A DNA stretch of 64,000 nucleotides from Pagrus major (Eukaryota > Chordata > Actinopteri > Spariformes > Sparidae): the NCBI RefSeq assembly GCF_040436345.1, contig NC_133234.1:9362446-9426445 (forward strand). Direction: 5' to 3'. The notes beneath the pieces were generated by a model. The model was given only the letters and a program-made list of their open reading frames with translations. It had not been told where the DNA came from and did no database searches. Shown here one piece after another: positions 5,985 to 47,148 of the stretch (position 1 is the stretch's first letter; each line of letters begins with the position of its first letter). Both the position numbers and the translations under genes were made by a program.

Positions 5985-7202
5985 TATGTTATATATGCAC
6001 ACTTACATGTCATGGTCGCCACTTGTGTGTTGTGTCTGTAAGGATACACGGCTTTGGCATCACACCACCACTTCCGAATCACAAAGGAAACTTTAACCGG
6101 AAAACCCTCCTCTGACCACTTCCTTCACACCTCTCTAACCAGTTTACTATTAAAGTTAGCTCTCTGTGACAGGAGGAGATAGTGCAGCAGAGTCATGTCG
6201 GCGTGTATCAGATACTGTAGCAGCTTCAATATAATATGTGTAGTATTTAACGTGAATAACGGAGGAAATGAAATAAAGGTAGATGTATGCAGCGCAGTAA
6301 ACAACATACACCCCCCTGCACAGTCTCTGTCTCCATCTAGTGGCCGACTGCATGTACTTCAGGAGGAAAGAGCTACAGGTAGGTAAATCACTGCAAAACT
6401 ATTGGTGCAAACCAAGTTCATTCTGTCATTTCAAGTAAAGATAGAGCCTTTAACTGCATCCAAGAGGGTTTAAATTCTGGTGTGATGTTTGCAATAATAA
6501 AGTGACATATTCTTTCACCAAACAGCCAGTTAACAGTAAATACAGCAACGAATGCAGTGTTGTAAAAAGTACCCAACAGTCATATTTGAGTAAAAGTAAA
6601 GAAATATTAATAGGGTAAAAGTAAAGGTCACTCTTACGAATAACTTAGTACTTGATTAAAAGTGTCAATATTGACTTAAGTATCAAAAGTAATTTTCTGG
6701 CAATAAATATACTTAGGAATCAAAGTAGCCAACAAGTAAAAGGAAATTATACATATATATGTATGTTTATACTGTACTATACTGTATTATCGGCCTGGCC
6801 AATTATCTGATCTGATATTCATCATTTTTCTCATTATCACATGATCAGAAGTATTTCTTTATATGTAATTGACAATAAAATTAATTAATTTGACGTGGAA
6901 ACAGACGACTTTTCCAAGTGGATTTTTTTCTGTTGTTCTCAGAGTAACAACTACCCAAAACACAGGACAAAACTTGAGTTAATTCATTCATTTAGTCTAT
7001 AATGAAGACGTTAAAGCAGAGACAAATGATGCCAGGCTGCCTGCATGACTGGATCACCAGTCAGCCTTCATTTTCCCAGGAGATTTCATCCCTGGTAGCA
7101 GAAAAAAAGGCACAATGAAAGCGAGCTTTATGGGGAGCCAATGTAAACGCTGATGGTGTCATTATTCTATAGCCATTACATTGTGCAGTCAACATTTACA
7201 TC
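5985..7202 (+). repeat. Duplicated segment, copy A
   Basis: This 1.2 kb stretch recurs in reverse orientation at about 46215-47148 (copy B). Long runs are nearly identical between the two, for example around 6037-6110, 6150-6400 and 7077-7200. Small indels separate them: copy A lacks about 14 bases near 6113 that copy B has, and copy B has replaced the section matching 6730-7065 by a (GA)n tract. The shared section includes both unique-looking sequence (6010-6550) and the left part of a hAT-like MITE starting at 6555, so the segment was copied as a unit after the MITE inserted. On the minus strand 6001-6020 shows an ATG followed by a GTAAGT splice donor, matched by ATG plus GTAAGC in copy B. 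Confidence 0.85.
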
Positions 7203-7443
7203 ATAATATAATTTAAAACAAAAAACTTGCCAAAATGATTTCCAGTTTACAAATGCACTACTAGTTACTAAAGTAATCAAATAAAAATAGTGGAGTAAAA
7301 AGTACAATATTTGCCTCCAAAATGTAGTGGGAGTGGAAGTATAAAGTAGCAGAAAATAGAGATGCTCAAGTGAAATACACATACTCAAAATTATACTTAA
7401 GTACAGTACTTGAGTAAATGTACTTAGTTGTATTCCTTCACTG
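6555..7443 (+). mobile_element. hAT-like (Tol2-type) non-autonomous transposon, full length
   Basis: The left end is CAGTGTTGTAAAAAGTACCC and the right end is TGTATTCCTTCACTG, giving CAGTG/CACTG termini typical of teleost hAT MITEs. Both ends carry the usual short motifs built on AAGTA and TGAGTAAA. No transposase is encoded. Flanks are AACGAATG (6547-6554) and AATGAAAG (7444-7451), a 6 of 8 match; copy B at 46 kb has AATGAAGG at the equivalent left flank, which matches the right flank here at 7 of 8 and supports an original 8 bp target-site duplication. Confidence 0.75.
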
Positions 7444-7929
7444 AATGAAAGAAACAAGAGTTTATTGAACACTGTCTTTACGGACGTTAAAGACGTTAAA
7501 GGTAAGTATTTTCAGGGCCTGCACTTGTGGGTTTTTCTCCGGGGGCTCCAGTTTCCTCCCACCACCCTATCATGCCAGATAAACTGGTGTGTTTGGTTTG
7601 AAAAAAACAACAATTATAATTTGAAATAATAAAACAATAAAGAGATTGAATTGGAACTATTTTGCTCTGTGTGTTTTATACAGTATTTTCTTCAAGTATG
7701 ATGATGTTTTTTCCATTATTCAAAGTTGAATTTTAGGTCCAGCACATCCAACAAGTTTTTTTTTGTATGCAGGCATACTTTTGGTGTATGTCTTATTCAA
7801 TAATAAATGAACTCATTATCCATCCATCTTGCAAATGCACACACTGGTCATGTGACAAATCCAACAACTACGTGTATGAAATGAGTATCACTACCTAATG
7901 TACAACTTGTTGGTTTCAGAACAACATAT

Positions 7930-8292
7930 TAATTTCATTCAGTTGAGTGTTTCAATTTTCTGCTACTTTATACGTCTTCTCCACTACACCTTGGAGGCAA
8001 ATATTGTACTTTTCACTCCACTACATTTATTTATTAACTTTAGTTAATAGTTACTTTACAGATTGGATGCTGCCTCAGACAACCACTGATTGTGATGATC
8101 AAAAAACACTAAACATCAGATCCTATAATGGGTCGACCCATAGTATGCAGTATATACATACATGTAAATATGTGTAACATTTACACAAGTATTAGTTGTA
8201 TTAGTAACTTTCACTTTTAACAAAGTAATATTTTTAACACAATATCTTAACGTTTACTCAAGTATGATTTTGGGGTACTTTTTACAACACTG
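7930..8292 (-). mobile_element. hAT-like MITE, partial, reverse orientation
   Basis: It ends in TACTTTTTACAACACTG at 8292, the complement of the CAGTGTTGTAAAAAGTA end seen at 6555. The stretch 7955-8030 (TTTTCTGCTACTTTATAC, GGAGGCAAATATTGTACTTTT) is the reverse complement of 7270-7350 in the neighbouring element. Its other terminus is decayed. Confidence 0.65.
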
Positions 8293-8935
8293 GATCCAAA
8301 TCCAGTGTATCTTGAGTTGTAGCAGAACTTCCCTGTTATATTCAACCTGCAGCTTCTATATGAACGACCTGCCTGTTGGCCTTTTTTCTACATCAACAAT
8401 TATTAATCAGCAGGAATGATAAACTGTCCTGGTTGGTTCTCAGGTTGTTCTACAGTAAAGTCAATGTAGACTTTGCCTTTATTATTTTACATTGATGAAA
8501 AGGAGGTGTTCCCTTGGCAAAAACTATTTACAATGAAAATAATACAACAAGGATTGAATAAATACTAACGCAAGGTATCAAACTAAAGTTAAGCATTAAG
8601 CAGTCGCATGTTAGAAGAAAATGAGTTGAAAATAGTTCAACATCTTCTTTTCAACTGACAACTGATGCTGCTGCTGGAGAAGTGGACTGCTGGAGACGCT
8701 TAACATGGAGGTTGGGAGCCATGGACACATTCAATCTCCATCTGTAATCATGAAACAAACATAGTTGTAAACTGTTACAATGAATAGGCTGTAAATTCAA
8801 GAATTATTGGAGCATGGCGATCCATAGTGACTAAAAGTCAGGATATCAGCTTCTGCTGCTCAGATTTTGATGATCTTGTTTTTCAGTTGGTCTCTAAGGA
8901 AGTGCAACACCAAATCAGTGGAGGGATTCAGTATT

Positions 8936-9279
8936 AAATGTGCACTTTGTAGTTTAGGGAACGAAATTTTAATCAGAAGAGAAAGATCTTCATTGAATAA
9001 TTTTTTATGCCTAAACAAACTAAATAAACAAACTTGTTTTCTTGACTGAATAAACAAACTGGGCTTAAAAAACAATACAATCCACACCACGTAAACCCTG
9101 CCACCTTTCTAGCTTCAAACAGTGTTCTGGGTACCTTATTCTCCTCTGGGAACAGCTTGTTTATTCAGTTATGGAATAAATAAATATTTCTTGAGTTTGT
9201 ATTATTACCTCATTAATATTGTAAACATTAAATTTCTGTCCTTGAATTTCTTCTTCAAAATAAACATAGTGCCCCTTTG
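8936..9279 (+). mobile_element. MITE family M1, copy a
   Basis: A 340 bp unit starting TGTGCACTTTGTAGTTT and ending with a decayed form of CATAGTGCACCTTT, so the two ends are inverted repeats. Internal landmarks shared with the copies at 31188, 37416 (reverse), 40757 and 59317 (reverse, shortened) are CCTGCCACCTTTCTAGCTTC, the ACAGCTTGTTTATTCAG box and TGTATTATTACCTCATTAAT. No coding capacity. The family is unnamed here because I cannot search a repeat library. Confidence 0.65.
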
Positions 9280-9599: not shown

Positions 9600-9708
9600 A
9601 TAACCACAATATACCGGCTACGGCAAGCGAGAAGGTTCTGTCTTGTTTAAAGCTTTCCGGTTTCCCACTGTCAACACTTGGCTCGAGCGCTGCTGCGGAG
9701 CAACGACG
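9600..9708 (+). promoter_or_regulatory. Likely get4 promoter/5' UTR
   Basis: Unlike the AT-rich flank, this stretch has several CpG sites (for example TACCGGCTACGGCAAGCGAG and CTCGAGCGCTGCTGCGG) and no TATA box, as expected for a housekeeping promoter. The exact start site cannot be read from sequence. The start codon context is GACGATGT. Confidence 0.45.
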
Positions 9709-12700
9709 ATGTCGGAACAGGAGTCTCTGAGGTGCTCCAGTGCCAGGAACCGTGGAGGTGTACAGAGGGTGGAAGGAAAACTGCGAGCCAGTGTAGAAAA
9801 AGGGGATTACTATGAAGCACACCAGATGTACAGGACTTTATTTTTTAGGTAAGTCTTCGTTTCACGCTCGTAGGTGCAGTTGTAATTGTCATTTGGCTTT
9901 GGGGCCTGCCTGTTCCAGATCATTCGACTGTCAACCTTGCTTCTATGCCTGGCCGTTTATGATTGGATGAATTTCACCGCGGACCCACCCACTCACGTCG
10001 GTCCGACTGTTTGTGTGGACTGCTGTGGTGTCAATCTCCTACAGTCACAAAATAGGACTGATAACTACGGCTAGTTAGCTAGCTAGGTGTTAGCAACACA
10101 AACTGATAATAGCCGAAGCAGAGCTAGCTGGACTGCTAATGCAAGACAGCTAGACAGTCTGTGTATATGCGCCTTTGGAACAGATTCGTCACGTGTAAAG
10201 TGTCAGAATATAGAGGCTAACTGCTCTGTTCACCGCTGTCATTTCCTTAACGTGTGTTGAAGCTGTCCAGCTGTGCTAGCGCTAGCCAGATAGCCACACA
10301 CTGCACCACCGCAGTCTGAACCTGACATGTTTTTCCTACTACCTGGTATATTTTTTGACTAGCTTGATCTACAGCTGGTTATGCTAACATGACACTTTGC
10401 CATATTTGCAGAATCAGACATATGCGTATTCAGAATAAGTTATGGTTTGTTTTCCAGTGTGTACTTCATCAATGAACACTCACATACTTGCAAGTGTACA
10501 TAGCTACCTGCTTCGGTTCAGTATGGACACCCGTATAATGTTCGGGGTAATGATGGTAGTTATGTCACCAAACTGGTTGGCTGTCCACCTCGAGAATAGT
10601 TTACTAAACAAGGTGATCTGCTCAAAATCCAATCCAGTTAAGGCCAAACCTTCCCCATGCGACAGATTGGGCTTGGTACCCTCCTACTTCTACCTCTCTT
10701 GTTCTTTCTCATGACTAGCACTCATGACTGCAACATTAACTCCTGAAATCCTCTCAAACATGTAAATCTTAAAACCACTGCAGCTGTCCCCTGGTCTTCA
10801 AGAATATTATATGATTATTCTAATCATTGTAATAATTTTGACACTTTGTTTTGTATCTCAAGCATAATTGGTGTGCACACATCTTATCTTGCAGCCCCAT
10901 GCTGGACTGGTTTTGAATGATGTAAACAAGACTTGTGTCAGTCTTGATAAGAAGATGGTATCATCTTATGTGCGTAGTGCTGAAACTTCTGTTTTCCCAT
11001 CAGGTACATGTCACAGGCTAAACATGCTGAGGCCAGGGAGCTGATGTACAATGGCGCTCTACTCTTCTTCAGCTATAACCAGGTACATCCTACACTGGAT
11101 TTCTGTTTTGTTGGTTATGTGTTCAGTGTATACATGTTCATGGAAACACTCTAAATAAGGAAATTATAATGTTATGTTTCACAGAAGCTTTGTTGGTTGA
11201 CTGTGTTTATTGTCTACTTTTGCATAATTGAGTATATTATAATTCCGGTGCAATATGTAAGAATTGGCCAATTCTTACTCCAAACAAATAAGTGGGAGCA
11301 TATCACGGGAGTAACTGCTAAATACTCCTAACTTTAGTTGCTGTTAGCTAGTAAGCTCATTTAACTGTGCAGCTATCGTTGTATTAGCCGACTCTGCCCA
11401 GACTGGTGGCTCATAGGACTATCACCTCTTGAGGTACAAAACTGGCTAGGGGCTAGCTGGTTAGCATGCCAATCTCAATAGATATTTCATATCACTGTAA
11501 CACAATTCATAGACATCTTTGACATAACATCAAAACTTCTGTGAAATTTCTTCACATTCTTCTCTCCGACAGCGTCTTGACTCACTCCCTTTTTTTTGAT
11601 TATTGTCAGAAGTAAATCAGCTTAGATACTGTTGTGCCTAACACACAGTACATGCATGATTAATCTTTTAATAATACATCAAAAATTGTATGCCCTGAAT
11701 AATGTGTCAGTTTTTCCCTGTGTTATTGAACATCATACATTTTTTCAAGGGATTTTGTATGTTACAAATGCCAGTATCATGACAACCCTAGCTTTGAGTG
11801 TGCATTAAAAGAAAGCCAGGAGTCAATTAGATGGCAGATTGCTTGTTGGCTGATACGTAATGTAAGATCAATTGATTAAACTAACTAAACCCAAATTCTC
11901 TTGCAAAATATGGAATTAAAAATACGGTTGGTTGTGTTTTCATCCCCAGCAAAACAGTGCAGCAGATCTGTCCATGCTGGTACTGGAGGTGTTGGAGAAA
12001 TCTGAGGCGAAAGTTGAAGATGAAATATTAGGTGAGTGGCAGCCTTCGGCCTTTAAAAGACACCTAATCATGTACAAGACTACCAGTTCTAAACAGTATA
12101 TATTTTTAGAGAGTTGTTTAATAGTGTATAGTTGCAGGGATTTGTTTTCTGCTTTCTTATCTGTTTGAGAAGTCCCATTATTAAATTTTAACTTTTCAAG
12201 TTGATCATTCTATACCAAGTGAGAGATACTTTTCACCACTGAGCAATAGAAAAAAATAATTAAATTAAACTTTCTTTGGAAATAATGCTTTAGAGGAAGA
12301 AGGTTACCCTTGCCAAAAGTGCAAATGTTAAAATGTTTTTACAAGGTCTCCATTATTTACAGTGTGTCCTGATGAAACGTTCCAGTGTTTTATTGTAGTG
12401 AGTTGTATTTATATTGAGATGGCAGTGGGCTTTATGTATGCTTTATGTAGCATATACAAACTATTTACACTATATACTGACCTACTATTGATTGATGCTA
12501 ATACTGTACTGATCTGCTAGTAATATCTCTAGTCTCCATAACAATAACAAATCCCTTTTAAGTCTGCCTTTCAGAAGGACGGCAGGATATTTCAGATCAG
12601 AACGGACATTCTCTGATGTTATTGGATGTGTGTGTCTGTGTGTGGTTGTGTGTTGAGTAGAAAACCTGGCTAAGCTGTTCAGCCAGATGGACCAGAACTC

Positions 12701-13703
12701 CCCAGAGAGAGTAGCATTTGTGTCTAGAGCCTTGAAATGGTCCACAGGAGGATCCAGCAAGTTGGGTCACCCAAAACTACACCAGCTGCTGGCTGTCACC
12801 TTGTGGAAAGGTAATCGATTAATCATGTAGTCTAAGGTATAAAGGACAATTACAAGTGATCATCACAAGACTATAAATGTTGAATGTAAGTTGATATCAA
12901 ACAAAGTTTCTGAGTCTCTCATTTGGTCTCATTAATTATTCAAATATCTATCAGTCAAAGTCATAAAGATACTTCCATAAAGACAAACAAACTACAAGGT
13001 AACGTGTCACAATAGGCCACTGTCCTCTTTCTCAGCTCTGACATCGGTTAACACTCCAGGGAAGCACCATTTTTATTCCATTCGCTCCCCAGACTGCTGC
13101 ACTTATTCTTCCATCTGTATGGCATCACTGGTGTGCGTTGCCCTTAATATTGTTCGTAATGTTGAAGCTGCCCTGTCCCTACTTAAAAGTTAATATCTTA
13201 ATCGATTTAATTTGGATATTGAACTACTTGTGTCTCCAGAGCAAAACTACAGTGAGTCTCGTTACCACTTCCTGCATTCGTCTGACGGGGAGGGCTGTGC
13301 ACAGATGCTGGTGGAGTATTCAGCGTCACGAGGCTTCCGCAGCGAGGTCGACATGTTTGTGGCGCAGGCCGTCCTACAGTAAGTGAAGAGTTGATCCCGC
13401 AAAAATAGGTTTATGATATCATCACAGTATAAAAGCTGAAATCACCTTCCATGTTTAACCAACATCAGCTTGCCACCAATAAATGTCTTGACTTTTAATC
13501 TGAAAATGAGCGCATCAGTATGTAATGTTCAGTAAATGTAATCTAAAATGCTCTATTAGATTTAAGGTGGAGTACTCAGAGTCTGTCTGTTCAGTGGATC
13601 AGTGTAGTTGTGTTGATGTATCCTCCTCCAGCATGTTGGCCTGCAGTCGGATCCATTTTCTGTTCGTCAGCAGCCTTTTTAAAAAGTCTTTTGATTTCTC
13701 TTT

Positions 13704-13742
<39 letters not shown>

Positions 13743-15854
13743 CTTCATCCTCTGTGCCACACTTTGTGTCATGTTTTCTTTCCCATCTTCTTTTTTTGTT
13801 TTTAACCCCTGTTCCTTTTTCTATTTCTGTCCATTCCTCATGTGAACCTCCGCCCTCCAGGTTCCTCTGCTTAAAGAACAAAAACAGCGCTTCTGTGGTG
13901 TTCAGCACATACACAGAGAAACACCCGTCCTTAGAGAAGGGCCCTCCCTTCGTCCAGCCTCTGCTAAACTTTATCTGGTTTCTGCTGCTGGCAGTGGATG
14001 GGTGAGGAAAAACCTTGTCTTTTAACACTCAAAAACGTATGTCTTATTCTGTCGTATATCTGTACAGACTCCTTGGACTGAGGATTTTAGCGTACAGTAT
14101 TTAAAATGTTTCTTCTCTTTGTATCTTCAGGGGTAAATTAACAGTTTTCACAGTGTTATGTGAACAATATCAACCTTCCCTGAAGAGGGACCCCATGTAT
14201 AATGAGGTGAGTGTTAAAAAATTGCTTGATGCTTAGTTATTTATTGCCATGAATCAGGTATTAAATGGCCTTTATTATTGTGACTGTATGTGTACCTTAT
14301 GTATTATTTATTGTATTATTATTACCTTATGTATTATACTGCATAATTTGATTCTACCTTTACTCTGGTTAAAGGTGCAATATGTAAGAATTTACTGCCT
14401 GTCAATTTCAAAACAAATATTGCTAGAGTGACCGCTAACTGTTGCTAATTAGCTGACAATAGCTAGTTAGCTCAGTTAGCTGTGCAGCTAGCAGTCTGGA
14501 CTGGGAGTTCGGAGGACCAGGGGAGTGTTGGTGTTTACACCACTAGCACAGGAGCTAAAATTCTTACATATTCCACCTTTTCAAGGTAATCAAAAACATG
14601 ACAGTTTTCATTTTTATGTTATGATGGAATGTTTCAGTCCATGTAAAGACAGTGACTGTCTTCAGCTGTAATATTTTAACATATCTTATTCACAAACGCA
14701 TCTCTCTCTTCTTCTTCTTCCTTTGGACTTCTTCCTGGCTTCTCAGTATCTCGACAGAATAGGACAAGTTTTCTTTGGAGTTCCACCCAAACAGTCCCCA
14801 TCGTATGGTGGTCTGCTAGGTGAGTGGACCAGGACTTTGTTTATTTGAACTGATGTCAAAGATTATTTACACACAAGTTTTGTTCCCCATATGTGCTGCT
14901 AAAACTCAACTTGATATCATGCCATCATGTCTTTATGGCACATAAGGAGCTAAACATTGGCTGGGTGCAGTGACTTCTGTAGTCATGTTATCAGGAAGGC
15001 AACCAGCAGAGAGCTGAGTCTGTACTGTTGGTATAGTAAGCTTGAGAGGAGCTGGTAGGCAGATTTTATTACCTTTGGACAGGCTAGCTGTTTCCCCCCG
15101 TTTCCAGTCTTTATGCTAAGCTTATCTTGTATGATAGTAATATTGATCTTCCCAACTATTTCTTGACACAGTATTTTATTTCCTAAAATGTCAGACTATT
15201 CCTTTTTAAAATGCTACAGAAATATTGAAACACCACTATTTGAAAAATAAATCTTGGCAACGCTTAATTTGAAGTGCCGACATGGCTGTAGGTATAAAAG
15301 TAATCTAGGGCTGCACCTAACCATTACTTATCAATTATTCTAATCATTCTTTTTTTTTAATTAGTTGATTAATCTATCAACTAATGCAGTGGAAGGGTGG
15401 CATTCCACATCCCCCCTTCCATCACATTCACATTACAACAACGTTAACATTGCTAACGCCGGCTAGCCACCATTAGGGCAGTACAGTCAGAGATGGTATG
15501 CTGAGCAAATACTAAAGAACTCAGCCATTCTAATGTTTTTTTCCACAAACTGTCAAAAACTATGTAGTGCACCTTTTTAAAAGTGACATAATAGGCTGAA
15601 AGACACTTAATGACAACAGTCATAAAGACTCCAGCATGTTCATGACAGGTGTCCCTGCATGTTTATGTACATCCCTTGAAAGAAAGTTGTTGTTGTCTGT
15701 ACAGTGTGCACCGTTGCAGCATTGTATGCACAGAATGACGATCACTATGTATCATCCTGCAGGAAACCTGCTGAACAGCCTGATGGGTTCGGGTGAGGAG
15801 GATGATGTGGGTGAAGAAGCCCAGGAGGACAGCAGCCCCATAGAGCTGGACTGA
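9709..15854 (+). CDS. get4: Golgi to ER traffic protein 4 (GET4/TRC35)
   Basis: GET4 is the alpha-solenoid subunit that, with BAG6 and UBL4A, holds newly made tail-anchored membrane proteins in the cytosol and hands them to the ATPase GET3/TRC40 for insertion into the ER. Nine coding exons join without a frame break: 9709-9848, 11004-11082, 11950-12031, 12661-12810, 13240-13378, 13861-14001, 14131-14206, 14747-14819, 15763-15854. They give 972 bases, 323 residues plus stop; human GET4 is about 327. Nearly every segment matches the family: [20 protein letters not shown] near the N-terminus, [78 protein letters not shown] and [19 protein letters not shown]. The acidic tail ends in SPIELD. The start at 9709 (MSEQES) is the first ATG before the conserved block. 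All introns are GT-AG. The gene stands alone, with vps35l convergent 4.5 kb downstream. Confidence 0.97.
11247..11560 (+). mobile_element. MITE family M2, diverged copy in get4 intron 2
   Basis: It begins GGTGCAATATGTAAGAATT, the end shared with units at 14371 and 29407, and contains the same GCTAGCTGGTTAGCATG-type core as 30990-31060. The right end is decayed. Confidence 0.5.
13709..13740 (+). repeat. (CT)n microsatellite in get4 intron 5
   Basis: About 15 CT units, part of a pyrimidine-rich tract running to the acceptor at 13860. It accounts for the serine/leucine-rich open frames seen here on both strands. Confidence 0.95.
14371..14583 (+). mobile_element. MITE family M2, short complete copy
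   Basis: It opens with AAAGGTGCAATATGTAAGAA and closes with TTCTTACATATTCCACCTTT, nearly perfect terminal inverted repeats of about 20 bp. The interior is GCTAGTTAGCTCAGTTAGC-like. About 213 bp, no coding capacity, inside get4 intron 7. Confidence 0.75.
15395..15582 (-). mobile_element. Dispersed repeat family M3 in get4 intron 8
   Basis: Its end AACTATGTAGTGCACCTTTT resembles M1 ends. The interior, read on the minus strand, carries GCTAGCCGGCGTTAGCAATG and GTGATGGAAGGGGGGATGTG, also found in the plus orientation at about 23490-23720 and 35060-35240. Confidence 0.55.
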
Positions 15855-20363: not shown

Positions 20364-21730
20364 TCAGGTGCGGGACTGTAGTGCTAGCCTCTGGACTGTA
20401 TCCGTCAGGTGACTCATGTCAGGCTGCAGAGCCTGGTGTTTGATGTACTCCAGAGTCCGAACCTGGAGCAGAGACAAACAGGAAGTCACTAATGCTGCAT
20501 TCACCTGAAGCATGTTCAATGAATGAGATTGCTGCACTCACCTTAGATAAGAAACATTTAAATGAATTATGGTTACATATGTTGGAGATGTGACTGTGTA
20601 TCAACTCACTGAGACACGAGTCTCACAGTATCCGTGTTTGTGGCTGAGGTTCCACAGGTTGACAGCCAGCTGGCTCAGCTTGTTGTTCCTCAGGTCACCA
20701 TGAGCCAGCAGGACACCGAACAGGGAAAAGGCCAGAGCGCCTTGACGCCGTGTGCTCTGCTGCAAAGGGGGCAAGAGGAATAATGTCAGTCAGGGTTTGT
20801 GAGGTCACAATGACCTTCACCTTTGACCACCAATTTTTAATGAGTTCATCCTTGAGCCCATGCGAACATTTGTGCCAAATTTGAAAAAAATTCCCTCAAG
20901 ACGTTCTTGAGATATCACGTTCACAATAATAGGATGGAAAGACGGATGGACAATCTGGAAGCATTACGCGGCCACGGCTATTGCCGGCATGGAGCCATAA
21001 AAATGTAATACAATAAAGTACAGGAGGAGACAAAACACTGCAGCCGATGGCAGTGGGCACTTCTGCCTCACCTCGTCCCGACCGAGAGCCTTCAGGTGGT
21101 CCAGGATCTGTCCGATCAGGGTCTCGCACAGCTTGTTGATCTCTGATAAAAACTTTGGGTCTCCTCCATAAAGTGTCTCATTGGAGTCCACTGAATCCAG
21201 GAAAGAAGAAAAATTATCAATTTAGTTGAAAAAATGCTCGCATAAGATCCCTCCATAAACCTCTACAGCGTAGGATAAGATTAAAAGTACAGCCTCTTGT
21301 CATGCAACACTTAAAACCTGGTAATCCAGACGTATACAGAAATTAACCTTGGAGTAATCCATAGAGGAGGATTAGGAAGTTCTGTTCTCTGAAATTTGGG
21401 AAAATGATGGATTTAGTGTTCTAAAAATAAGTGCTCAGAGAAAGCAAATTAATCTTGTCACCTGGATTTGTTTTTAAGAAAGCTTGCTTGCTTTTAATAT
21501 GCATATCCAATGTATTTAAGACTTCCAGCATGAAATAGCCATCTGAATAAAGACTTTTTAAACTTTTTGACAGAAGAGTGCCTTGGATCTTTCTTTTCTG
21601 ACCTTCTGTGTTTCCTACCAAACAGCACCTTCATCACACTATTTTTAAACATCTGAGCACTCCTGACTTTTTCTTTCTGAAAAAACATGAGCAGTACAGT
21701 TCATAAGAAGTATTTTTACAACACTTACAA

Positions 21731-21770
<40 letters not shown>

Positions 21771-24700
21771 CGTGTGTGTGTTGACCTTTAGGGATGGAGT
21801 AGAGGTAGGTTTCCTGGCTCATGGCGGCCAGCAGGGGCAGAGCACTGACATAGACCCGCACCTTGGCGTCACTGTTGTCCTCCCAGGTGTAATCTTGGAC
21901 CATGTTGAGCAGACCGCGAACTAGATAGAGCACGCCGTGCTCTGGGTGGTCCTGCAAACACATTCGCACACACACATATGTGTAACATTTAGGGAGACTG
22001 GCCTGTTGCTTTGGTGCCTCATCGTCTTTGACTCTAAAACTACACCTGACCTCCGAACTAAAACGTCTAAACAGAGGAATGCGGTGGTGCTGAATGTTTC
22101 TGCTTTGGATGATTTTCCTTATCTTTCTGTTCTGAAAGGCTTATGAGAGGAGATGGATTGTGTTACCGGGACAACCAGAAGCGTGGCCAGGAAGTTGTTG
22201 ATGAAGTCCAGCAGGAAGCTCTCTGAGGAGCGGAGTTTCCCCTCCACGCTGATGGAGCGAGGAACCTCCGGAAGAATACTGACCGCTGCCTTTAGGAAAG
22301 CATCCGCTGGAGGTGTGCAAAGAAGGGCGGACAGAGGGAGGAAGGACAGGTGGTAACAAAGAAAGGAAAATTAGGAAATCAGTGAAGAAGAGAGGAAAGA
22401 AGGGGAAGAAAACAGAAGAAGAATTTTATGAATGACTAATTAAACAAGATAAAATGAACTGGCCATCATCTCATTTGCTGAAAATCCTTAAAAGAAGCAG
22501 CAGCTCACCCTGGGAGAGACACTGGTTTGCCAACGCAACCTGACCAGACAGCAGGTAGAGGCTGAGACGACTGAAGATGCTGCTGAGAGACGGGATGGTG
22601 ATGAAACTGTAGGCAGCACACGCCTGGAGGAGAGGTAAACAGAACAGTCCCTGAATTGGCAATGATTGGTTGATGATACCAGATTTCAAACACTGTCTGC
22701 CTCCTGTCTGGTGCTGTGACGATACGTGATTCTGTGTGACGGATGAGGTTGACTCACCCTGACAAAAGCCGCTGTTTTCCTGGAGTGACTCCCTCTCATC
22801 ACCCTGCTGGTCTCCATCGCCAGCTGGTTCACCGTCTGGAAACAACACTTTGAGCATTGAGGATGGTGTGCGCACGAATATCACATACAAATGAAATATA
22901 CTGATGTATGCTTACATGAATGAGCTGCACCAGCACTGGCTCCAGGTTACAGAAGGTGGCTCTGGCCTCCACACAGAAACTCAACTGCTGCTCGAAGTCA
23001 CGACCAAAAGAAACCTAAACACAAACAGACAAAGTAAATGAGTAGAAGAAGAGACAATGGTATTTTATTACATTAACTACAATTACATTGTAGTGTCATT
23101 GATTGATTGTTGTTAATAACAACAATGTGAGGAGGCAAGTTTTATCACATCCCATAGAACAAAAATCCAAAAATCCTACTAACATATATCGTCTGTGCAT
23201 TCACAGCCTGATATATGTTATTTCTCTGTGCCACAGAGCTCCAATTCTTGTTCAAAAATCAGTGATGTGCACCGGGTGTTTGTTTCTGCCATTAACATTG
23301 GCTCTGTACTTATTTTAGTCAGCCCCACATGCACCTAACTGGACCAGCAGATGGCTTTTTACACAAGGAAATTGTTTAGAAAAGGGTGGGCACTTTCACA
23401 AAATACTTTGCAGGTGATTGGACGAACCATCTGTCTATGACCATCTATTATTGGCTAACTTCAACCAGTCAGATCGACTGTAGTAGAGCATTAAAGGTCA
23501 TATCAACAACATTTTTATGTAGACAAATCATCTTTTACAATAAATAACATTAGCAAGTGTAAGCAACGTTAATGTTTGCTAGCTATGTTAGCAACTGCCA
23601 GCTACTTGAGGGGGCAGATGATTCAAACAACAGTGGTGTTGAATGCAATGGAAGGGGGAGATGAAATGCTACATTTAGTGGCTTCAATCAAGAATGCTTT
23701 CAGTGTCGTTCTTTGTTTCTTTGAATGAAATTAACTCTCCAATTCTGATATAACAGATGCTATAGCATCTAAATGCCTGTAGCTGCCAGTAGTTCCTCAT
23801 ATGACGCTAATTGGTTCAATCACTGTGTGTTTGGCCACAAGTGCAAAGCTTGAAGCCATGCAATTCTGCTGCCTCACCAGGTAAACGCACACCAGCCTGC
23901 TACTGGAAGTACTCCACATAACCACATGTGTATTAATCTTCCACAAACAGCCCCAAACAAATACATAATTTGCTCCTGTTTGCCTTTTAAAAAAAAAAAA
24001 AAACTATACTACGTATTTGTGAGCTGTTTTTAAACAATACAATGGAAGTCAGAAAGTATAGAGACAGACTAATGAATAGTTTCTCAGTAAGAAAATCTAA
24101 AATAACATCTAGAAAACGTCTTATTTCTAAGTCACAGACAAACGTCTGAGGAGTCTCACCATGCGGATGAAGCCGATGATAAGCAGAGCCAAAGATCTTT
24201 TCTCATCCTCAAGAGTGAGAGCGCTGCAATACAGAGAGGAGACAGATGTCTGACTGATGACTTAGTATCCATCTACTTTAACAGAGCGGAAACTTGAAAG
24301 AAAAATAGATGTTCACTGACATTCTAATTCATATTAAATATTTATATATTATATATTTCTCCAAGCCTCTAAAAGAATGAAAGTAATAAGTAGTATATAA
24401 CATTAACAATCACACAAAGAAATATCCTACTTGACAGAGTCGTGCATGGTCTTGCAGATGTGCAACATGGCGTTGAGGATGACCGGGTCTCTGGTGGGCT
24501 CCACCTGGTGTCTGCAGGAGACAAACAGATAATGCAACATTTGTGAGAAGTTGCCACTTTTGTGTCAAAAAGAGAAATAAATCTCATTATTTCATCAATC
24601 TCTCACTTGATGAAGACCTCCATGATGGATCTGCAGACCTCCACCCTCACGCTGTCCTTCTGGAACATGTCGAGAAATGGCAGGAAACGCTCCTGGGAAA

Positions 24701-30700: not shown

Positions 30701-32060
30701 TTACACGACAGACAGACAGGAGACCACAACAGGTTCAGCTTTTTCTACTGACTATCCTTCCAGTCACCGTGTGGGCTTATATTGACACTCTGATTTGGCA
30801 TAGTGGTTATTTACTTGCATTAACTCGAATTCAAATAGGCAGCAGGATATCACCAGAGTAACCCATAACTGCTGCTAACCGTAGCTAAAATTAGCTCTTT
30901 AGCTCAGTTAGCCATGTAGCTAGTTCTCCTATTAGCTGACTCTGCCCAAACTGAGAGCTCAGAGCACCAGAGTGTCGGTGTTATTTCCTATTGGACTTTC
31001 ACCTTCTGAGGTACAAGGTGGTTAGGGATGAGCTGGTTAGCTTGTTAACTTCAGTAGATATCTCTGCAACACAACACATACAGTAGATGTCCTTGAAGAA
31101 GCCCAAATTGTTATTTTTTTCACCTCTCTGTTGATAATTTGTAGGTAATTTCTGGATGTTTTAAACTTAAATTCATAATGCACCTTTAAATGTGCATTAT
31201 GTTTTTTTGGGGGAAGAAATTTTAATCAGGAGAGAGAGATCTTCACTGATTGATTTTTAATGCCTAAACAAACTAAATAAACAAACTCGTTTTGTTTTTG
31301 TGACTGAATAAACTGAATAAACAAACTGACCTTAAAGGACAACTCATCTCATACTGTTTAACTTTGTTTATATGTGGCGGACCCTGCCACCTTTCTAGCT
31401 TCAAACAGTGTTCTGGGGACCTTATTTTCCTCTGAGAACAGCTTGTCTATTATGGAAAAAACACAAAGATGAAGGTCTTGTGTGACAAAGGACACCCAGC
31501 TGTCAAGAATGGGAGGCAAGTGTCAGCTCATGACAGAGATATGAGTTATTACAGTATTACTCTAGAGAATGAAAGACAAAAACACTTGTGTAAGGACGCA
31601 CTGCTGCTTTCACCATCTGGACTGTGTAACAACTCTAAAGGGGAAAAAACCTATCATATGTTTATGACAAAATGATATTAAAACTTAGTAGTAATCCAGG
31701 GTACGTCCTCACACGTAGATAAATCTTAAGTTCCTAAACGTCTGCTAAAAAAAACCCTGTGTCATATCTTATAACACATCCCCATAAGCTTTGCTAGACG
31801 ACAACCAAAACATAGTCATAGAGGGTATTTGATTTAGGCCACAGCCATAACAACACTTGGAGATGTTATGGTGAAAACCTGCAATAAAAAGTGGACATTT
31901 CATTTGGCACGCTAAATTACAATTAAGCTCACGACCCACGCTTTGGTACGTTCAAAAAAGTGAAAAATGTCAATATATACATGATATAACCGATTAATTT
32001 TGCGCATACTGAGAGTTTTTGTATGAGAAAAAGAGCATCTTACCACTGCACCGCAGCCAT
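20364..32060 (-). CDS. vps35l: VPS35 endosomal sorting factor-like (Retriever scaffold)
   Basis: VPS35L (human C16orf62) is the scaffold of Retriever, with VPS26C and VPS29. With SNX17 and the CCC and WASH complexes, Retriever recycles integrins and other cargo from endosomes to the cell surface. Thirty exons join in phase, in 5' to 3' order: 32060-32044, 30696-30597, 30392-30210, 30098-29979, 29852-29828, 29650-29574, 28559-28431, 28331-28247, 28169-28113, 27937-27853, 27596-27549, 26995-26902, 26670-26470, 26323-26277, 25562-25451, 25365-25249, 25161-25108, 25014-24934, 24834-24772, 24692-24607, 24511-24431, 24223-24160, 23014-22916, 22835-22758, 22623-22509, 22306-22167, 21951-21786, 21190-21072, 20756-20610, 20462-20364. 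Total 2889 bases, 962 residues; the human protein is about 963. Landmarks: start MAAVQW, then RSRGRNYD and [12 protein letters not shown]; a run of nine serines (about residues 55-63); [62 protein letters not shown]; and [15 protein letters not shown]. One intron (26469-26324) uses a GC donor. The 17-base first coding exon is the least certain piece, but its phase and the Trp codon across the junction fit. Confidence 0.97.
20805..21002 (+). repeat. Dispersed teleost repeat in vps35l intron 28
   Basis: It contains the phrases TTTGTGCCAAATTTGAAAAA, CAAGACGTTCTTGAGATATC and GCGGCCACGGCTATTGCCGG, a repeat I remember as common in percomorph fish introns. A related phrase (GTTGACCTTTCACCTTTTGG) appears at 19071. 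The name of the family cannot be settled without a library search. Confidence 0.5.
21734..21782 (+). repeat. (GT)n microsatellite in vps35l intron 27
   Basis: More than twenty GT units with one interruption (TTCG), starting directly next to the exon ending at 21786 on the donor side. Confidence 0.95.
23490..23720 (+). repeat. Dispersed repeat family M3 in vps35l intron 22
   Basis: It shares GCTAGCTATGTTAGCAACTG, CCAGCTACTTGAGGGGGCAG and TGGAAGGGGGAGATGAAATG with the stretch at 35060-35240, and with the minus strand of 15395-15582. No coding capacity. Confidence 0.55.
29407..29515 (+). mobile_element. MITE family M2 fragment in vps35l intron 6
   Basis: It begins AAAGGTGCAATATGTAAGAA, as at 14371, then GCCACTAACTGCTGCTAACT. 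The right end is missing. Confidence 0.55.
30845..31455 (+). mobile_element. M2 and M1 (copy b) MITEs back to back in vps35l intron 1
   Basis: 30845-31187 carries the M2 core (CCATGTAGCTAGTTCTCC, GAGGTACAAGGTGG) and ends CATAATGCACCTTT. It is followed at once by an M1 copy (GTGCATTATGTTTTTTTGG to about 31455) with the usual CCTGCCACCTTTCTAGCTTC box. The right end of the M1 copy is truncated. Confidence 0.6.
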
Positions 32061-36254: not shown

Positions 36255-39200
36255 ATGCGTATGAACAGCAGCTGGAGGTGGCAGCTCTCCCGGGCCATGC
36301 GACTCGCCCTGCGCTGGTGCCGGCTGTGCCGCCCGCAGAGAGGAGGCCGAGGCGGTGGAACCAAGCCGTGGATCAGCGGCAGGTTCTTGGAGCTGTGGAA
36401 CTATAGCAAGCTGCTGCTCAAGTCCTTGTACTTCAACAGCCTCAGCAACTCAGACACTCTGCTGGACTGCGCGTTTGAACCCGTCTACTGGATTGTGGAC
36501 AATGTGACCCGCTGGTTTGGAGTGGTGAGGGGTTGGATTTCTATTCTGGATGCTTCCACACTCCCAAACTGTACTCCTCACCCTCTCTTGTTTTTCCCTC
36601 TCAGGTGTTTGTCACTCTAGTCATACTACTCACGACCTCAGTTGTAGTCATCGTCTACCTGTTCGTCCTACCCACAATACTCAGCGCTTACCCTTTGCAC
36701 TGGGTCGTCTGGCACCTCTGCTGCGGCCACTGGCTTCTCCTCATGGTTGTCTTCCATTACTACAAGGCCACCACCACCTCCCCAGGACACCCACCCAAGG
36801 TACCAATTCTTCATAAGCTGACATGGTGTAGCAAGATTTCTACTGTGAGTGCTGTCAGCTGCAGCTCAGCTAAAGGAGTGCCACACTTTGTTTACATTAG
36901 AGCTGCAATGCTTATTCAGTTAATTACAGAGGAGGATTAGGGCCACTGTAAAAAAAAATATTTTGACTGATTTCTGACGTTAAAGCCAGTTGGCAATTCA
37001 ATTTCTTGTGACTGATTAATCACTTAACTACAGAAGAGGATTCGGGAACTGTAAAAAAAAAAAAACACTTTGTGTTCTGACTTTTTTTCACAATTCTGAT
37101 TTTGCTAGATTTTTTTAACCAAATTTTGACTTTAAAGTTTTTTAAACGGCAGCCCTAATCCTCTTCCGTAGTTAACTGATTAGATGGTGGAAAGAAATCA
37201 AATAACCAACTATTGGGTTTACCGATTCAGTCATTTTTTCCAAATAAAAATGTCAAACATTTGCTTGTTCCAGCTTTTTAAGTGTGAGGATTTGCTGCTT
37301 TTCTTTATTAGTTGTGTCAATAAACAATAAATGAAGAGTCTTTGGGTCACCTTTGGCTCTGGTAAATTGTGATTAGCATTTTTCCCATTTTTAACATATT
37401 ATAGACTAAACGATTTAAGGGGAACTATGTAGTTTTCAAGATAAAATTCAGACTTTAATATTTACAATATTAATGAGGTAATAATACAAACTTAAGAGAT
37501 AGTTATTATTTCCATAACTGAATAAACAAGCTGTTCTCAGAGGAAAACAAGGTTGAAGTTTGAAGATAGAAAGGTGGCAGGGTCTGCCAAATATAAACGT
37601 AAAAGTAAAATAGGTATGAAACTGTGTTGTCCTTTAAGGTCAGTTTGTTTATTCAGATTATTCAATCATGAAAATGAATTTGTTTAGGCAGAAAGAAATC
37701 AGTCAATGAAGATCTTCTCCTCAGATTAAAATGTTTTCCCCAAAACTACATACTGCACCTTTAGTCAATTAGTTGCAGCCCTAGTTTACATGCTGGTTGA
37801 CATCACTTGTCAGTTTAACACAAGGGTCCTTAACAAAATTGTGAAACTAAAAACCAAATATTCTTGCCCAGGATTACCGCCATGTACCAGTTTTCATGGT
37901 ATATCATGATATGAAAATGTTAGTGTACAAGTGTTATTTAAAAAATAATATTTAAAGTTTATATAAAGTTTAAAGGATCTGTTTTCATTCTGTTGAGGGT
38001 CATTGTAACTGATATTATAATTATTATCTTAATTGTGTAATACTGCACATGGTGAAATGGCGAAACCCTGATATTTTTGACAGGGTTATTGTACTCTATT
38101 GTACTACTGGATAAAATCTCATACGTTGCAACCTTATTCTTGCCTTGTGTTTTGGATTTGTTAAAGTTATTTCACTAGTATTTTGCAGATAAAATGTCTA
38201 TTTTTTCACTACCACAAGGTTAACACTTCTTCCAATAAGACAATTTCTACATCCTCTCTGTTTTTTATGTTTATTTCAGGACAAAATTCATATTCCCTCA
38301 GTGTCCATCTGTAAGAAATGCATCACTCCGAAACCGGCCAGGACACACCACTGCAGCATCTGCAACATGTAAGATGATCAAACAATGATGCTCGTATACA
38401 GAGTTTGTCATTTATTTTTTATTTTTAATCATTCATGGTGAACTGTCTCTGTTTCATTAAAGGTGTGTTTTGAAGATGGACCACCACTGTCGTATCCTTC
38501 TAACAAGTAACACATAAAAAACCCAAAAGAGAATACATGAAAAAAAAATGTTACGTTACTTTTAAATTTACTTTTTAATATCCAACCTTGTACAAATCGA
38601 ACTGAACATGCTTCCAGCCTGGTTGAACAACTGTGTGGGCCATTTCAACCACCGCTACTTCTTCTCCTTCTGCCTGTACATGACCCTGGGCTGCATCTAC
38701 TGCAGCATCAGCAGCAGGGACTTGTTTCTGGAGGCCTACAGCGCTATAGAGGTGAGGCCGGATGAACTGAAACGCTGCATCATCAGACCTTTGAACAAAA
38801 AATGATTTCCACTTCTGCTGGTAGACTCTTGGCCACCTCATTAACCCCGTAAATTAGACATTAGTAGATTAATTTTCTTTTTTCTTGAGGTTCGTCCAGG
38901 TGTTGTTAATGGTGCGAGTTTAGGTGAGGAGCTAAAGCTTCGTACCGTAGCACCTGCTAGACGGTAGTAAGAAGGCAGAAGCTGAGCTCAGATGGCTAAT
39001 GACAAGCGAAACAGGAGACTTGAACAGGATCTTTTCTTTCTGCGCTGATATTTATCAGTCCAGGATGGTCTTGTCTCAAAGGTGATTGTGCACCATCTGG
39101 TAAACAAACAGCTCTAGGATTCGAATACCAATTACTTTGCAAATTGGATGTCCTGTGCAACCAAAGATCACTTAACCAGGAACAGGATCCAGCATGTTAG

Positions 39201-41279
39201 ACTTGTAATTTTACCCATATTGCAAGTGGCCTTTTGATCCTGAGCCAAAATGACCTCAGAAAGCACTGAACATCCTCAAATCAGACCTTTAGAAGTGAAA
39301 TATATACACATATATGACTCTGATATAAACACTCTCTCCTTCAGAGATACTATCAGACCCCTCCTCCAATGGAAACCTTAAAAGAAACCACTGCTCACAA
39401 GTGTGTCATCTTCCTCTGGGTGCTGACCAGGTGAAAAACACTTTACTACATGCAGTATATTCCCCCTGTTTACATATCAGGTGAAGGTTGACAACATCAT
39501 GCAGACAGGTCAAGTTGTAATGTGTCCCCCCTGCAGCTCAGTGGCAGTCGCTCTGGGAGGACTCACACTTTGGCATACCATACTCATCAGCAGAGGAGAG
39601 ACCAGCGTGGAGCGACACATCAACCGTAAAGAGACCAAAAGACTACGGGAGAAGGGCAAGGTACATGTACACGTTAACAAAGTCAGTATTGGATGTGTAC
39701 ATTTTAAGACAAAAAACTTACAAGTTTCTTCTGTTCTCACGCAGGTGTTCAGAAATCCATATCACCATGGTAACATGAACAACTGGAAGTTACTGTTTGG
39801 TGTAGAAAAAAGGAGGTGAGTTCAGTTACCCATTGTTTAATATGGAGCGGCAGCAGTGGGAAATGTTGGGCTTATATTAGCAATAACATAATATATCCCA
39901 GATATGTTGTAAAGATAGTAACAGTAAACAGTGCAGCTGCTGTTATGAATGAGACAAAATTCCATTAGATTACATGCACGCATTCTTGTGAATACCTCGG
40001 GCATGTGAAGGCAATCTGAATCCAGGAGTGACGGACCTCGCCACTACAAATAGAAACTACATAGAAACTATCTAGAGAGATAATTACAGAATGTAATACA
40101 TGGAATGGCTGTTCCTTAAAGATATGATATGTAGCAATTCTTTATTAAAAGGCCTAAAAAAAAAGGTCTTTTTGTATATTTTGTTGCGTTGTGTACTTAC
40201 ATTCTCCCAAATGTTTTTCAACAATGTTCAAACCCAAAGAAAACCCCAAGTTTACTCAAAGTCACAGTGCGTTTCATTAGGGAAGTGAACAAAGAAAACT
40301 GAACTTGCGTCGAGAACAGAGGTCTCCTCCGCAGATCACTGATTCAGTCAGGTTGATAGACGGGACGTAAAGATAAATCCACTTTTTAATCTCAAAAGTT
40401 AGGGAGTAATCTCTGAGCTCTCCTCCCGTCGGTAAACAGCTCAGGATCAGAACCGGTCTGGATCAGAACCGGTCTGGATCAGAACAGGTCTGGATCAGAA
40501 CAGGTCTGGCTCAGCCCCTGACACTTTAGTCCTCTCTGAGCAGCTGAGCATTGTCTCCTTCCTCAAAACACTCAAATGTCTTATGTTTTGTTTTGAGAGA
40601 GAGCCCCCTAGTGGTGGACATTACATATACATGTAGTATGCTTAACCAAACTAAAGTTGCCTACAGTCATGTTTTCACATTTCAAAGCTGCTTGAAATCT
40701 TGGAAAAGGTTTTTGCTAATTTTAGTCTTTTTTGCATATTATCACAGCTATTCCATTAAAGGTGCACTATGTAGTTTTGAATAAGAAATTTTAATCAGAA
40801 GAGAAATTTAGAATATTATTTTATGCCTAAACAAACTAAATAAATAAACTCTTTTCATTTTCATGACTGAATACATTGATTAAACAAACTGACCTTAAAG
40901 GAAAACACATTTCCTTTGTTTATATTTGGCGGACCCTGCCACCTTTCTAGCTTCAAACAGTGGTCTGGGGACCTTATTTTCCTCTGAGAACAGCTTGTTT
41001 ATTTAGTTATAGAAAAAAAAAATCATATTTCTGAGTTTGTATTATTCCATCATTAATATTGTAAATGTTAAAGTTTTGAGTTTGAATTTCTCTAAGACAG
41101 TATGATTCAGATTATTTTTAAAACAACCTTGTTGTTTCTAGCCATAATTCAGGCTATTTGTCCTTCTGTTCCTCAGTCATTGGTTCACACGGGTCCTCTT
41201 GCCGTCCAGCCATCTGCCAAATGGAGACGGCATCATGTGGGACTGGACTTTCTCCAGAAGAGATCCCATGGCCATCTGA
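36255..41279 (+). CDS. zdhhc16: Palmitoyltransferase ZDHHC16
   Basis: ZDHHC16 is a DHHC-type S-acyltransferase of ER and Golgi membranes that attaches palmitate to cysteines of proteins, among them another acyltransferase, ZDHHC6. Nine coding exons: 36255-36524, 36605-36799, 38280-38368, 38463-38491, 38618-38751, 39345-39430, 39537-39660, 39745-39815, 41177-41279. They total 1101 bases, 366 residues, against 377 in human. Domains in order: a basic N-terminus (SWRWQLSRAMRLALRW); two membrane spans (about 91-115 and 125-143); a cysteine-rich domain CKKC..HHCSICNMC with the catalytic DHHC at 191-194 followed by PWLNNCVGHFNHRYF; and two more spans (about 207-225 and 257-282). The C-terminus ends GIMWDWTFSRRDPMAI. 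The zinc-binding Cys/His pattern is complete. A 16-residue block present in the long human form between exons 5 and 6 was not found; the join is in phase without it. The start at 36255 (MRMNSS) is chosen by family fit; the frame stays open upstream. Confidence 0.95.
37416..37763 (-). mobile_element. MITE family M1, copy c, in zdhhc16 intron 2
   Basis: The best preserved copy: opens AACTATGTAGTTTTCAAGA and closes CAAAACTACATACTGCACC, clear terminal inverted repeats. The interior is the reverse complement of the units at 8936 and 40757 (AAGGTGGCAGGGTCTGCCAA, AACAAGCTGTTCTCAGAGG). Confidence 0.75.
40445..40514 (+). repeat. 16-bp tandem repeat in zdhhc16 intron 8
   Basis: Four consecutive copies of GATCAGAACCGGTCTG (the last two read AACAGG), then a partial fifth (GCTCAG). 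The unit begins at 40445 and the fourth copy ends at 40508. Confidence 0.9.
40757..41092 (+). mobile_element. MITE family M1, copy d, in zdhhc16 intron 8
   Basis: It begins AAAGGTGCACTATGTAGTTT and keeps the CCTGCCACCTTTCTAGCTTC and TTCCTCTGAGAACAGCTTG boxes. It ends close to the last exon's acceptor at 41176, with the right inverted repeat lost. Confidence 0.65.
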
Positions 41280-44094: not shown

Positions 44095-44480
44095 TTATGA
44101 ATTAAAATAAACCAATAAAACTGGCAGTACTTGGGGAACCCCTGGTCTTTTATGAAGTATTTCTGACATACTAAATATATATATATACATATATATACAC
44201 ATACCGGTGCTACCGGTGAACTTAATCGCTCTTCTACAGAACTTACAAATGGCCATTATTTTCCTTCTTTCTTTTAAAATCCAAATGTCTTCCAAATTTT
44301 AGATTTGATGGTGCACTATGAACCATGTGGGCATCGTCAGACATGTTTTTGTTTATCCCTCGCAAGCATGGATCTAATGGCAACGGAGGCAGTGCGCTAG
44401 CGTGACATGAAGTAACGAGAGTGTCGATGCAGGGCTCGCACATTGATGTAAAGGCATCTTTAATGTTCAAAAACCATTTC
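44095..44480 (-). pseudogene. Decayed hAT transposase / BED zinc finger relic
   Basis: Two overlapping minus-strand frames read like the N-terminus of a hAT transposase with a BED-type finger: LKFGRHLDFKRKKENNGHL in one frame and MAICKFCRRAIKFTGSTGM in the other, i.e. C-x2-C followed by the usual GSTG turn. The frame shifts between them (about 44250) and the histidine half of the finger is lost. An ATATAT tract at 44177-44200 follows. No catalytic core is left. Confidence 0.55.
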
Positions 44481-45289: not shown

Positions 45290-46112
45290 TAGAACGTTAA
45301 CGGTTTCAAGAAAAGAGTTTGACAAAATCCGCAGAGCAGTTCCCTTCCCTTTACTAAGACTGATGCAAAGCCGTATGCAATTTTCTCTGATTGCACCTTC
45401 TCTGCCCTCTCTAAAAGTTTTAAAATAGTACCTGCAATTTACCTTGTTACTGATTTTATAACCAAAAGGTTTAAATTTGAAGTGGATCCTTGCATTGTTT
45501 GTTCATCAGGGGCTGAAACCATTAAACATGTATTATTTAAATGTCCATATACTAACTCGTTTTGGTCTGATGTTCATAATTGGCTGTCAGTAAAAATGTA
45601 CAACGTACCTTCTTTAACTGTTACTTTTACTATTTTATGGACAACTTGGATGCATGTTTCCGACACTGTTAACCCCTGATTGTAGTAAATATCACATACA
45701 TGCTTGTAAGTGGAGTGGTAGTACTCCCACCTTCACCATGTTTATCCATGTTTTTGTTGACTTCCCCCGAGTCATTGAAGTATATGGAAAAACAGATAAG
45801 AAGGCTAAAAAACTATACACATCCATATCCCAACCCTTGCTCTTTTAAAGGACTCCCTTGCCCCTTTGTACTCTTCGTTTGTTCATCTGTTCTCTCTTTT
45901 TTTTCATTTATTTAGTTTTGTAAAAATCCTCTCTCTTATCTTGCAGTATGAAGGTATTTCTTTTATCTGCTGCTTATCTGTGTCCCATCTGTAACATCAT
46001 CACCACCTCCGTTGTTTGTATTATACTACTATATTTGTATGATTCCCTATCTTACTTTGTACATTTGCCTTGTGCTGAATAAAGTAAAAAATAAATAAAT
46101 AAATAATTTTGT
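45290..46112 (+). mobile_element. 5'-truncated LINE (L1/Tx1-like) 3' end
   Basis: 45482-45600 reads MDPCIVCSSGAETIKHVLF then KCPYTNSFWSDVHNWL, the C-x2-C...H-x4-C knuckle and FW signature at the C-terminus of Tx1/L1-type reverse transcriptases. A second frame further on gives VYGKTDKKAKKLY. The unit ends in GAATAAAGTAAAAAATAAAT repeats (46077-46109), a typical LINE tail. Several stops and frame shifts; dead. Confidence 0.65.
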
Positions 46113-46214
46113 CTCTGTTAAAATGCCATATAATTCAAACAAAAGTTACTCTGAAGTGCTAAATCCACAGATAGAGTGTTACCAACCACCACATCTTGGT
46201 GCTTTAACTCTTCA

Positions 46215-46351
46215 TTATAAAGTAAATGTTGACTGCACAATGTAATGGCTACAGAATGAGACAATCAGCGTTTACATTGGCTCCCCATTAAGCTCGCTTT
46301 CACTATGCCTTTTTTTTATTCCACCAGGAATAAAATCTCCTGGGAAAATGA

Positions 46352-46411
<60 letters not shown>

Positions 46412-47148
46412 TCCCTTAATAGGATGCTACTTTTGATACTTACATTTAATATTAAGACTTTTAATCAAGCACTATTCATATGGGTGACTTTCACCTTCAA
46501 CATGACGTCTTTACTTTTACTTGGTATGACTTTTGGGTACCTTTTACAACACACTGCCTTCATTGCTGTAGATGCTGTTAATTGGCTGTTTGCAATAATA
46601 CAGTGACAATTTTTTCAGCAAACATCACACCAGAGACCCTCAGGGATGCAGTTAAAGGCTCTGTTTACTTGACAAGTAACAATGACACAGAGTGAACTTG
46701 GTTTGCACCAATAGTTTTGCACAGTGATTTACCTACCTGTAGCTCTTTCCTCCTGAAGTACATGCAGTTGGCCACTAGATGGAGACAGAGACTGTGCAGG
46801 GGGGTGTATGTTGTTTACTGCGCTGCATACATCTACCTTTATTTCATTTCCTCCGTTATTCACGCTAAATACTACACATATTATATTGAAGCCGCTACAG
46901 TATCTGATCCACGCCGACATGACTCTGCGGCACTATCTCCTCCTGTCACAGAGAGCTAACTTTAGTAGTAAACTGGTTAGAGAGTAGTCGTGAAGGAAGT
47001 GGGTCTTTGCGTCCCACGCAGAGGAGGGTTTTCCGGTTAAAGTTTCCTTTGTGATTCGGAAGTGGTGGTGTGATGCCAAAGCCGTTTATCCTTACAGACA
47101 CAACACACAAGTGGCGACCATGAAACGTAAGCGTGAATATGTGCATTT
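46215..47148 (-). repeat. Duplicated segment, copy B (inverted relative to copy A)
   Basis: Reverse complement of 5985-7202, nearly identical over long stretches (for instance 46730-46960 against 6165-6395, and 46222-46300 against 7110-7200). It holds the hAT MITE left end at about 46540-46555 with the same flank as copy A. A (GA)n tract at 46358-46408 replaces the middle. The 47120-47132 section gives ATGAAAC followed by GTAAGC on the plus strand. Confidence 0.85.
46358..46408 (+). repeat. (GA)n microsatellite
   Basis: About 24 GA units inside copy B of the duplicated segment, absent from copy A. Confidence 0.95.

Follow-up and report, generated by a model that had tools for sequence, protein, structure and literature searches.

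An inverted pair of copies around three genes

We analysed a 64,000-nucleotide stretch of Pagrus major DNA (the window, contig C20:9362446-9426445), in which three genes, get4, vps35l and zdhhc16, lie between two inverted copies of a segment that we call S. From left to right, the window carries the 3' part of mms19, which continues beyond its left edge (1-4397, plus strand), get4 (9604-15854, plus), vps35l (20964-30734, minus), zdhhc16 (36255-41276, plus) and the 5' coding part of mrtfb, which continues to the right (51838-64000, plus); the extents of get4 and vps35l are approximate. The genes between the copies were read from open frames of at least 70 codons, so that a gene made of small exons could be missed. 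Our interpretation, to which we give a probability of roughly 0.78, is that the get4-vps35l-zdhhc16 block is a micro-inversion, fixed or segregating, bounded by the two copies of S.

The strongest self-match of the window pairs positions 5993-6691 with 47140-46428 in inverted orientation (712 bits in a self-BLAST, against 231 for the next-best match), with 85.4% identity over 733 columns (E = 0). A second inverted piece pairs 7065-7207 with 46354-46214 (88.9%, E = 1e-43). Taken whole, the left copy of S extends from 5993 to 7207 and the right copy from 47140 to 46214, about 40 kb away. A preliminary description had noticed a segment recurring in reverse on either side of three genes, and both the inverted pair and the recognition of get4, vps35l and zdhhc16 between its members bear this out. 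The copies do not form a uniform 1-kb duplicate, because the alignment has 73 bp in the right copy, mostly a CT microsatellite, where the left has 373 bp. Each end of the block nonetheless carries one inverted duplicate of the same DNA, as inversion by staggered breakage would leave it.

The segment is a mosaic. Its outer part of about 550 bp (5993-6556 in the left copy, plus strand) is rare, and its inner part derives from a common hAT-like transposon that makes up more than half of S; the superfamily name is our assumption. We searched a genome of 785.9 Mb in 25 contigs by a procedure that ignores very common words and may overlook copies that have diverged. The outer 553 bp alone (5993-6545) was found at three places, all three candidates having been scored: the two copies described here and a partial copy of 365 bp on contig C15, which spans 6171-6535 of the outer part. 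Used as a query, the C15 copy retrieved the same three places. By contrast, a 1218-bp query, for which the best 40 of 3145 first-look candidates were scored, listed at least 45 matches, at least 38 of them dispersed and within query positions 911-1218. The high-copy repeat that the preliminary description had named as the objection to its proposal is thus present in the inner part (query 911-1218) and absent from the outer 553 bp. That the pair is an assembly artefact, or a chance pairing within a common repeat family as the inner part might suggest, is very improbable: the outer 553 bp was found at three places only, and next to a shared tract described below the divergence between the copies is about 18%, more than an assembler would confuse.

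In the left copy the element is complete (6557-7444, plus strand) and appears to be nonautonomous. Its ends and flanking 8-mers were read by eye; the 8-mers, AACGAATG and AATGAAAG, resemble a target-site duplication and are alike at six of eight positions. The right copy's upstream 8-mer, AATGAAGG, agrees with the left copy's downstream 8-mer at seven of eight. A family member at 127.7-128.2 kb is flanked by CAAGATTG and CTAGATTG, also seven of eight alike by eye, and both elements combine CAGTG-like ends with 8-bp target duplications whose 8-mers are imperfect. The right copy holds a 36-bp micro-inversion (46588-46623) between the 6-bp inverted repeats GTTTGC and GCAAAC; the left and C15 copies both have the other orientation. 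What looks like a 5'-truncated long interspersed nuclear element (LINE), presumably L2-like, adjoins the C15 copy (L003:1882-2530).

Flanks and sequence exchange

The two copies are truncated reciprocally. On the inner side of the left copy, S, the complete element and the DNA toward get4 form one uninterrupted sequence. The C15 copy has the same order of S, element and flank, up to the equivalent of 7489, and lacks two stretches of the element (6536-6814 and 7033-7183). Because the left and C15 copies agree in this order, S appears to belong with the get4-side flank. At position 5993, its outer end, the left copy breaks off abruptly: the guanine plus cytosine (GC) content over 100 bp is 0.20 just outside and 0.46 just inside, and ranges from 0.32 to 0.48 in bins further out.

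The right copy (46191-47140, minus strand) is cut at its inner end, where it breaks inside the element at about 46190-46214, and its outer end is continuous with a CpG-rich stretch (46801-47400). The observed-to-expected ratio of CpG is 0.78-0.94 and the GC content 0.43-0.48 in six 200-bp bins across 46801-47500, and every 200 bp, to the left of 47140 as well as to the right, contains 8-11 CpG. Only two of the 128 500-bp bins of the window have a ratio above 0.75 with a GC content of at least 0.45; one is 47001-47500 and the other holds the start of get4. The stretch is a putative mrtfb promoter. Since the outer half of the right copy lies within a CpG-rich stretch that crosses its end, while the left copy ends at AT-rich DNA, S appears to belong with the mrtfb-side flank as well.

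Each copy keeps one flank, and only the pair together, now 40 kb apart, keeps both. The flanks that we presume to be original are divided between the two ends of the block, as expected of a staggered-break inversion. Had S simply dispersed, one copy should be whole and the other cut at both ends. The simplest reading of the sequence is that S originally lay between get4 and mrtfb and that the inversion of the block took place there. It is improbable that no inversion occurred, that S, as a rare dispersing segment, spread from the mrtfb side to the get4 side, that the right copy later lost its inner end, and that get4-vps35l came to lie between mms19 and zdhhc16 through other events. S, element and flank did move together to C15, and a LINE 3' fragment with an A-rich tail (45323-46110, plus strand; Pfam zf-RVT, E = 5.7e-7) reaches to within about 100 bp of the inner end of the right copy, which makes a local loss plausible. 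This history, however, calls for duplication, deletion and an independent reordering in which zdhhc16 is turned, where one inversion would do, and the copies bracket exactly the genes that have to be turned. An exact 9-16-bp target duplication of the LINE fragment was looked for and not found. The DNA beside the right copy (46040-46213) yielded no junction-spanning repeat in the genome; besides itself, it had one 45-bp match, on contig C1.

Similarity between the copies is concentrated in one tract (6011-6421 of the left copy). Left and right differ at 4 of 18 positions in 5993-6010, at 11 of 411 (2.7%) in the tract, at 23 of 129 (about 18%) in 6422-6556 with the micro-inversion turned, at 28 of 133 in 6557-6700 and at 13 of 140 (9.3%) in 7065-7207. 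The value of 33 of 125 for 6426-6556 is inflated by the unturned 36-bp micro-inversion. Before turning, the change point at 6421 gave twice the log-likelihood difference as 68.3, against a maximum of 20.3 in 1000 shuffles; after turning, the contrast between 5993-6421 (15 of 429) and 6422-6556 (23 of 129) has p = 3e-7.

The third copy, on C15, is 16-19% away on both sides of the 6421 boundary. It differs from the left copy at 40 of 250 positions in 6171-6421, at 22 of 117 in 6422-6556 and at 12-14% in the element. The low left-right value does not reflect general constraint, because left-C15 differences stay high in the same tract, and selection was rejected as the cause of the 410-bp similarity since they show no change at the boundary (42 of 254 in 6171-6425 versus 6426-6535, Fisher p = 0.88). 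Right-C15 differences did change there (p = 0.002) with the micro-inversion unturned; after turning, the counts are 40 of 252 and 26 of 120, and we put the change down to the right copy's micro-inversion. The best reading of these comparisons is gene conversion of about 410 bp between the inverted copies, and such an exchange is also what recombination between inverted repeats would entail. At neutral rates of 2-5e-9 per site per year, the tract would date back very roughly 3-7 million years and the divergence of the copies 20-50 million, although the piece at 7065-7207 would give a younger split. In the parts of the cited papers on which we draw here and below, conversion tracts are described as a few hundred base pairs long in mammals and 518 bp on average in Drosophila (PMC3961182); the tract here has the length of ordinary conversion tracts.

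The tract also bears on how the block may have turned. It is possible, but on balance unlikely, that homologous recombination took place between two S copies already in inverted orientation, the mms19-side copy being an older dispersed duplicate; the tract would then mark the crossover and the flip might be a few million years old. A third, dispersed copy does exist on C15, 16-19% away outside the element, and a sharp tract of about 410 bp at 2.7% is the trace expected of exchange. In herring, where three of four inversions are flanked by inverted duplications, the authors favour this mechanism and describe it as the most common one in vertebrates (PMC11499932). Such a history nevertheless requires that S had already been duplicated, in a separate event, into the space between mms19 and zdhhc16, and conversion without crossover accounts for the tract equally well. 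Because the final sequences would be the same as after staggered breakage, structure alone cannot decide between the two.

Gene order and the proposed inversion

In the window, mms19 and zdhhc16 share a strand and are separated by 32 kb. Turning the DNA between the S copies once makes them adjacent and tail to tail again, whereas insertion of get4-vps35l alone would leave zdhhc16 unturned. The preliminary description had likewise proposed that the block flipped between the inverted copies and that turning it back restores a convergent zdhhc16/mms19 pair; the tail-to-tail orientation of the human genes is our assumption, and their adjacency is documented. The common transposon in S, the reciprocal cuts and the gene conversion do not figure in that description. 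The human locus has been named in the order EXOSC1-ZDHHC16-MMS19-UBTD1 (PMC6563950). In mink, ZDHHC16 (209,928,631-209,937,825) and MMS19 (from 209,938,058) are separated by 232 bp (PMC11272623). A smelt bacterial artificial chromosome with 15 genes includes UBTD1, MMS19 and, at its end, an incomplete ZDHHC16, the accessible wording giving neither the neighbour of MMS19 nor the strands (PMC3499448). The neighbourhood of the two genes in human and mink and the end gene of the smelt clone, together with the reciprocal truncation, support the proposed flip. On the left side of the window the order is ubtd1 (minus), mms19 (plus), and on the right side mrtfb-shisa9 agrees with the linkage of mkl2 (mrtfb) and shisa9 described in teleosts (PMC4730296, PMC4259306).

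From the reciprocal truncation of S we infer an inversion of get4-vps35l-zdhhc16 and an ancestral head-to-head junction of get4 and mrtfb. The ancestral order would have been mms19(+), zdhhc16(-), vps35l(+), get4(-), element, S, CpG-rich stretch, mrtfb(+). One break would have separated mms19 from zdhhc16, and the other, located at S, get4 from mrtfb. The block would then have been rejoined in reverse, leaving S (about 1.2 kb) at both ends in opposite orientation, and at least one later recombinational meeting of the two copies would have homogenised about 410 bp. If the inversion is accepted, we slightly but tentatively favour staggered breakage that duplicated S, a single event with arbitrary end points such as those seen (inside the CpG-rich stretch and inside the element); recombination between older inverted copies is then a serious possibility, at a little under even odds. 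Recombination between duplicates seems to be the commonest inversion mechanism in vertebrates (PMC11499932), which speaks against our preference. On account of this statement we lowered staggered breakage from even odds to just below them and raised recombination from about one chance in three to two in five.

Several observations weigh against the inversion. The GC content of the CpG-rich stretch is below the 0.5 usual for an island, the left copy's outer side also has a CpG ratio of 0.74-0.77 (on 3-4 CpG per 200 bp), and the contrast in CpG decay is small, with four lost in the left copy and one in the right. Divergence outside the tract is uneven: it is only 9.3% in 7065-7207, and the outer part stands out from that piece only weakly (p = 0.011). 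The flip is read from the sequence of a single fish assembly. A leftward dispersed duplication of S, followed by loss of the right inner end, would produce such copies with no flip involved, and S did disperse to C15.

By analogy, the block may work like Drosophila inversions 2h and 2q and the inverted-repeat inversions of human and herring, which would make it a rearrangement of an ordinary type whose traces are unusually easy to read. The repeats at human inversions are longer and more alike than the copies here. In Drosophila mojavensis, 2h and 2q are attributed to staggered single-strand breaks and non-homologous end joining (PMC3355041). As here, they have inverted duplications at both block ends; in 2h one copy is intact and the other reduced by deletions, and one of the 2q segments measures about 1 kb (PMC3355041). 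They differ in that an uninverted species was compared, and in that the copies here were later gene-converted. Human HsInv0389, which turns FLNA and EMD, likewise places a small gene block between inverted copies, but it is polymorphic in people, whereas ours is a single assembly (PMC3961182). Atlantic herring is also a fish with inverted duplications at three of four inversions (85-99% identity, with only core regions at 95-99%), but there the inversions are megabases long and polymorphic and the duplications measure from several to 60 kb (PMC11499932).

When the duplicated end segment is cut reciprocally, as here, a single assembly can indicate an inversion together with its ancestral junctions even if no outgroup is at hand. 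The locus is also a small vertebrate case of inverted copies 40 kb apart that have exchanged sequence, in which recurrence of the flip is directly testable. Because of this exchange, present polymorphism is possible. A continuing flip-flop, in which the copies keep recombining, both orientations recur or coexist, and mms19/zdhhc16 and the get4/mrtfb promoter pair are repeatedly joined and parted, is quite improbable.

Gene identification and other features

The gene names rest on domain and structure matches and, in part, on protein sequences that we presume. For mms19, Pfam MMS19_C (E = 1.5e-10) and a PDB MMS19 structure (E = 2.6e-10) were matched, and its last exon and stop were read against the presumed protein end. 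Two joined exon pieces of get4 matched a PDB GET4 homolog (E = 1.3e-26), the Pfam GET4 match (E = 1.9e-4) being below the cut-off. PDB VPS35L was matched by vps35l (E = 2.2e-13), whose open frames were read against what we take to be the human protein. Joined exons of zdhhc16, the last at about 41.2 kb, matched Pfam DHHC (E = 5.2e-16); the number 16 is our presumption, as are the name of mrtfb and its N-terminus at 51.8 kb, and an mrtfb SAP domain (E = 1.2e-11) lies at 87 kb in window numbering. The mrtfb start had no match in PDB, and one zdhhc16 open frame had there only an unrelated weak match (E = 0.55). Against Pfam, one of ten open frames exceeded the cut-off, and in a second set six of eight proteins were matched. 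Searches of the window for RNA families and transfer RNAs gave no matches.

The 100 kb on either side were read for open frames of at least 110 codons, at which scale other genes may be missed. They contain rbp3 (plus) and ubtd1 (minus) on the left, and the SAP exon of mrtfb and shisa9 (plus) on the right. A 697-codon minus-strand open frame at -75946 to -73856 (window numbering) presumably encodes a LINE polymerase and lies between exons that we take to be anthrax-receptor-like. An interspersed repeat family occupies five places in the window (8933-9278, 31183-31451, 37452-37763, 40753-41091 and 59322-59395), with pairwise identities of 77-92%. A second zdhhc16-like gene, probably a duplicate dating from the genome duplication of teleosts, is found on contig C15 (8162052-8166796). 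The last intron of zdhhc16 in the window contains five repeats of a 16-bp unit, AACAGGTCTGGATCAG, at 40435-40514.

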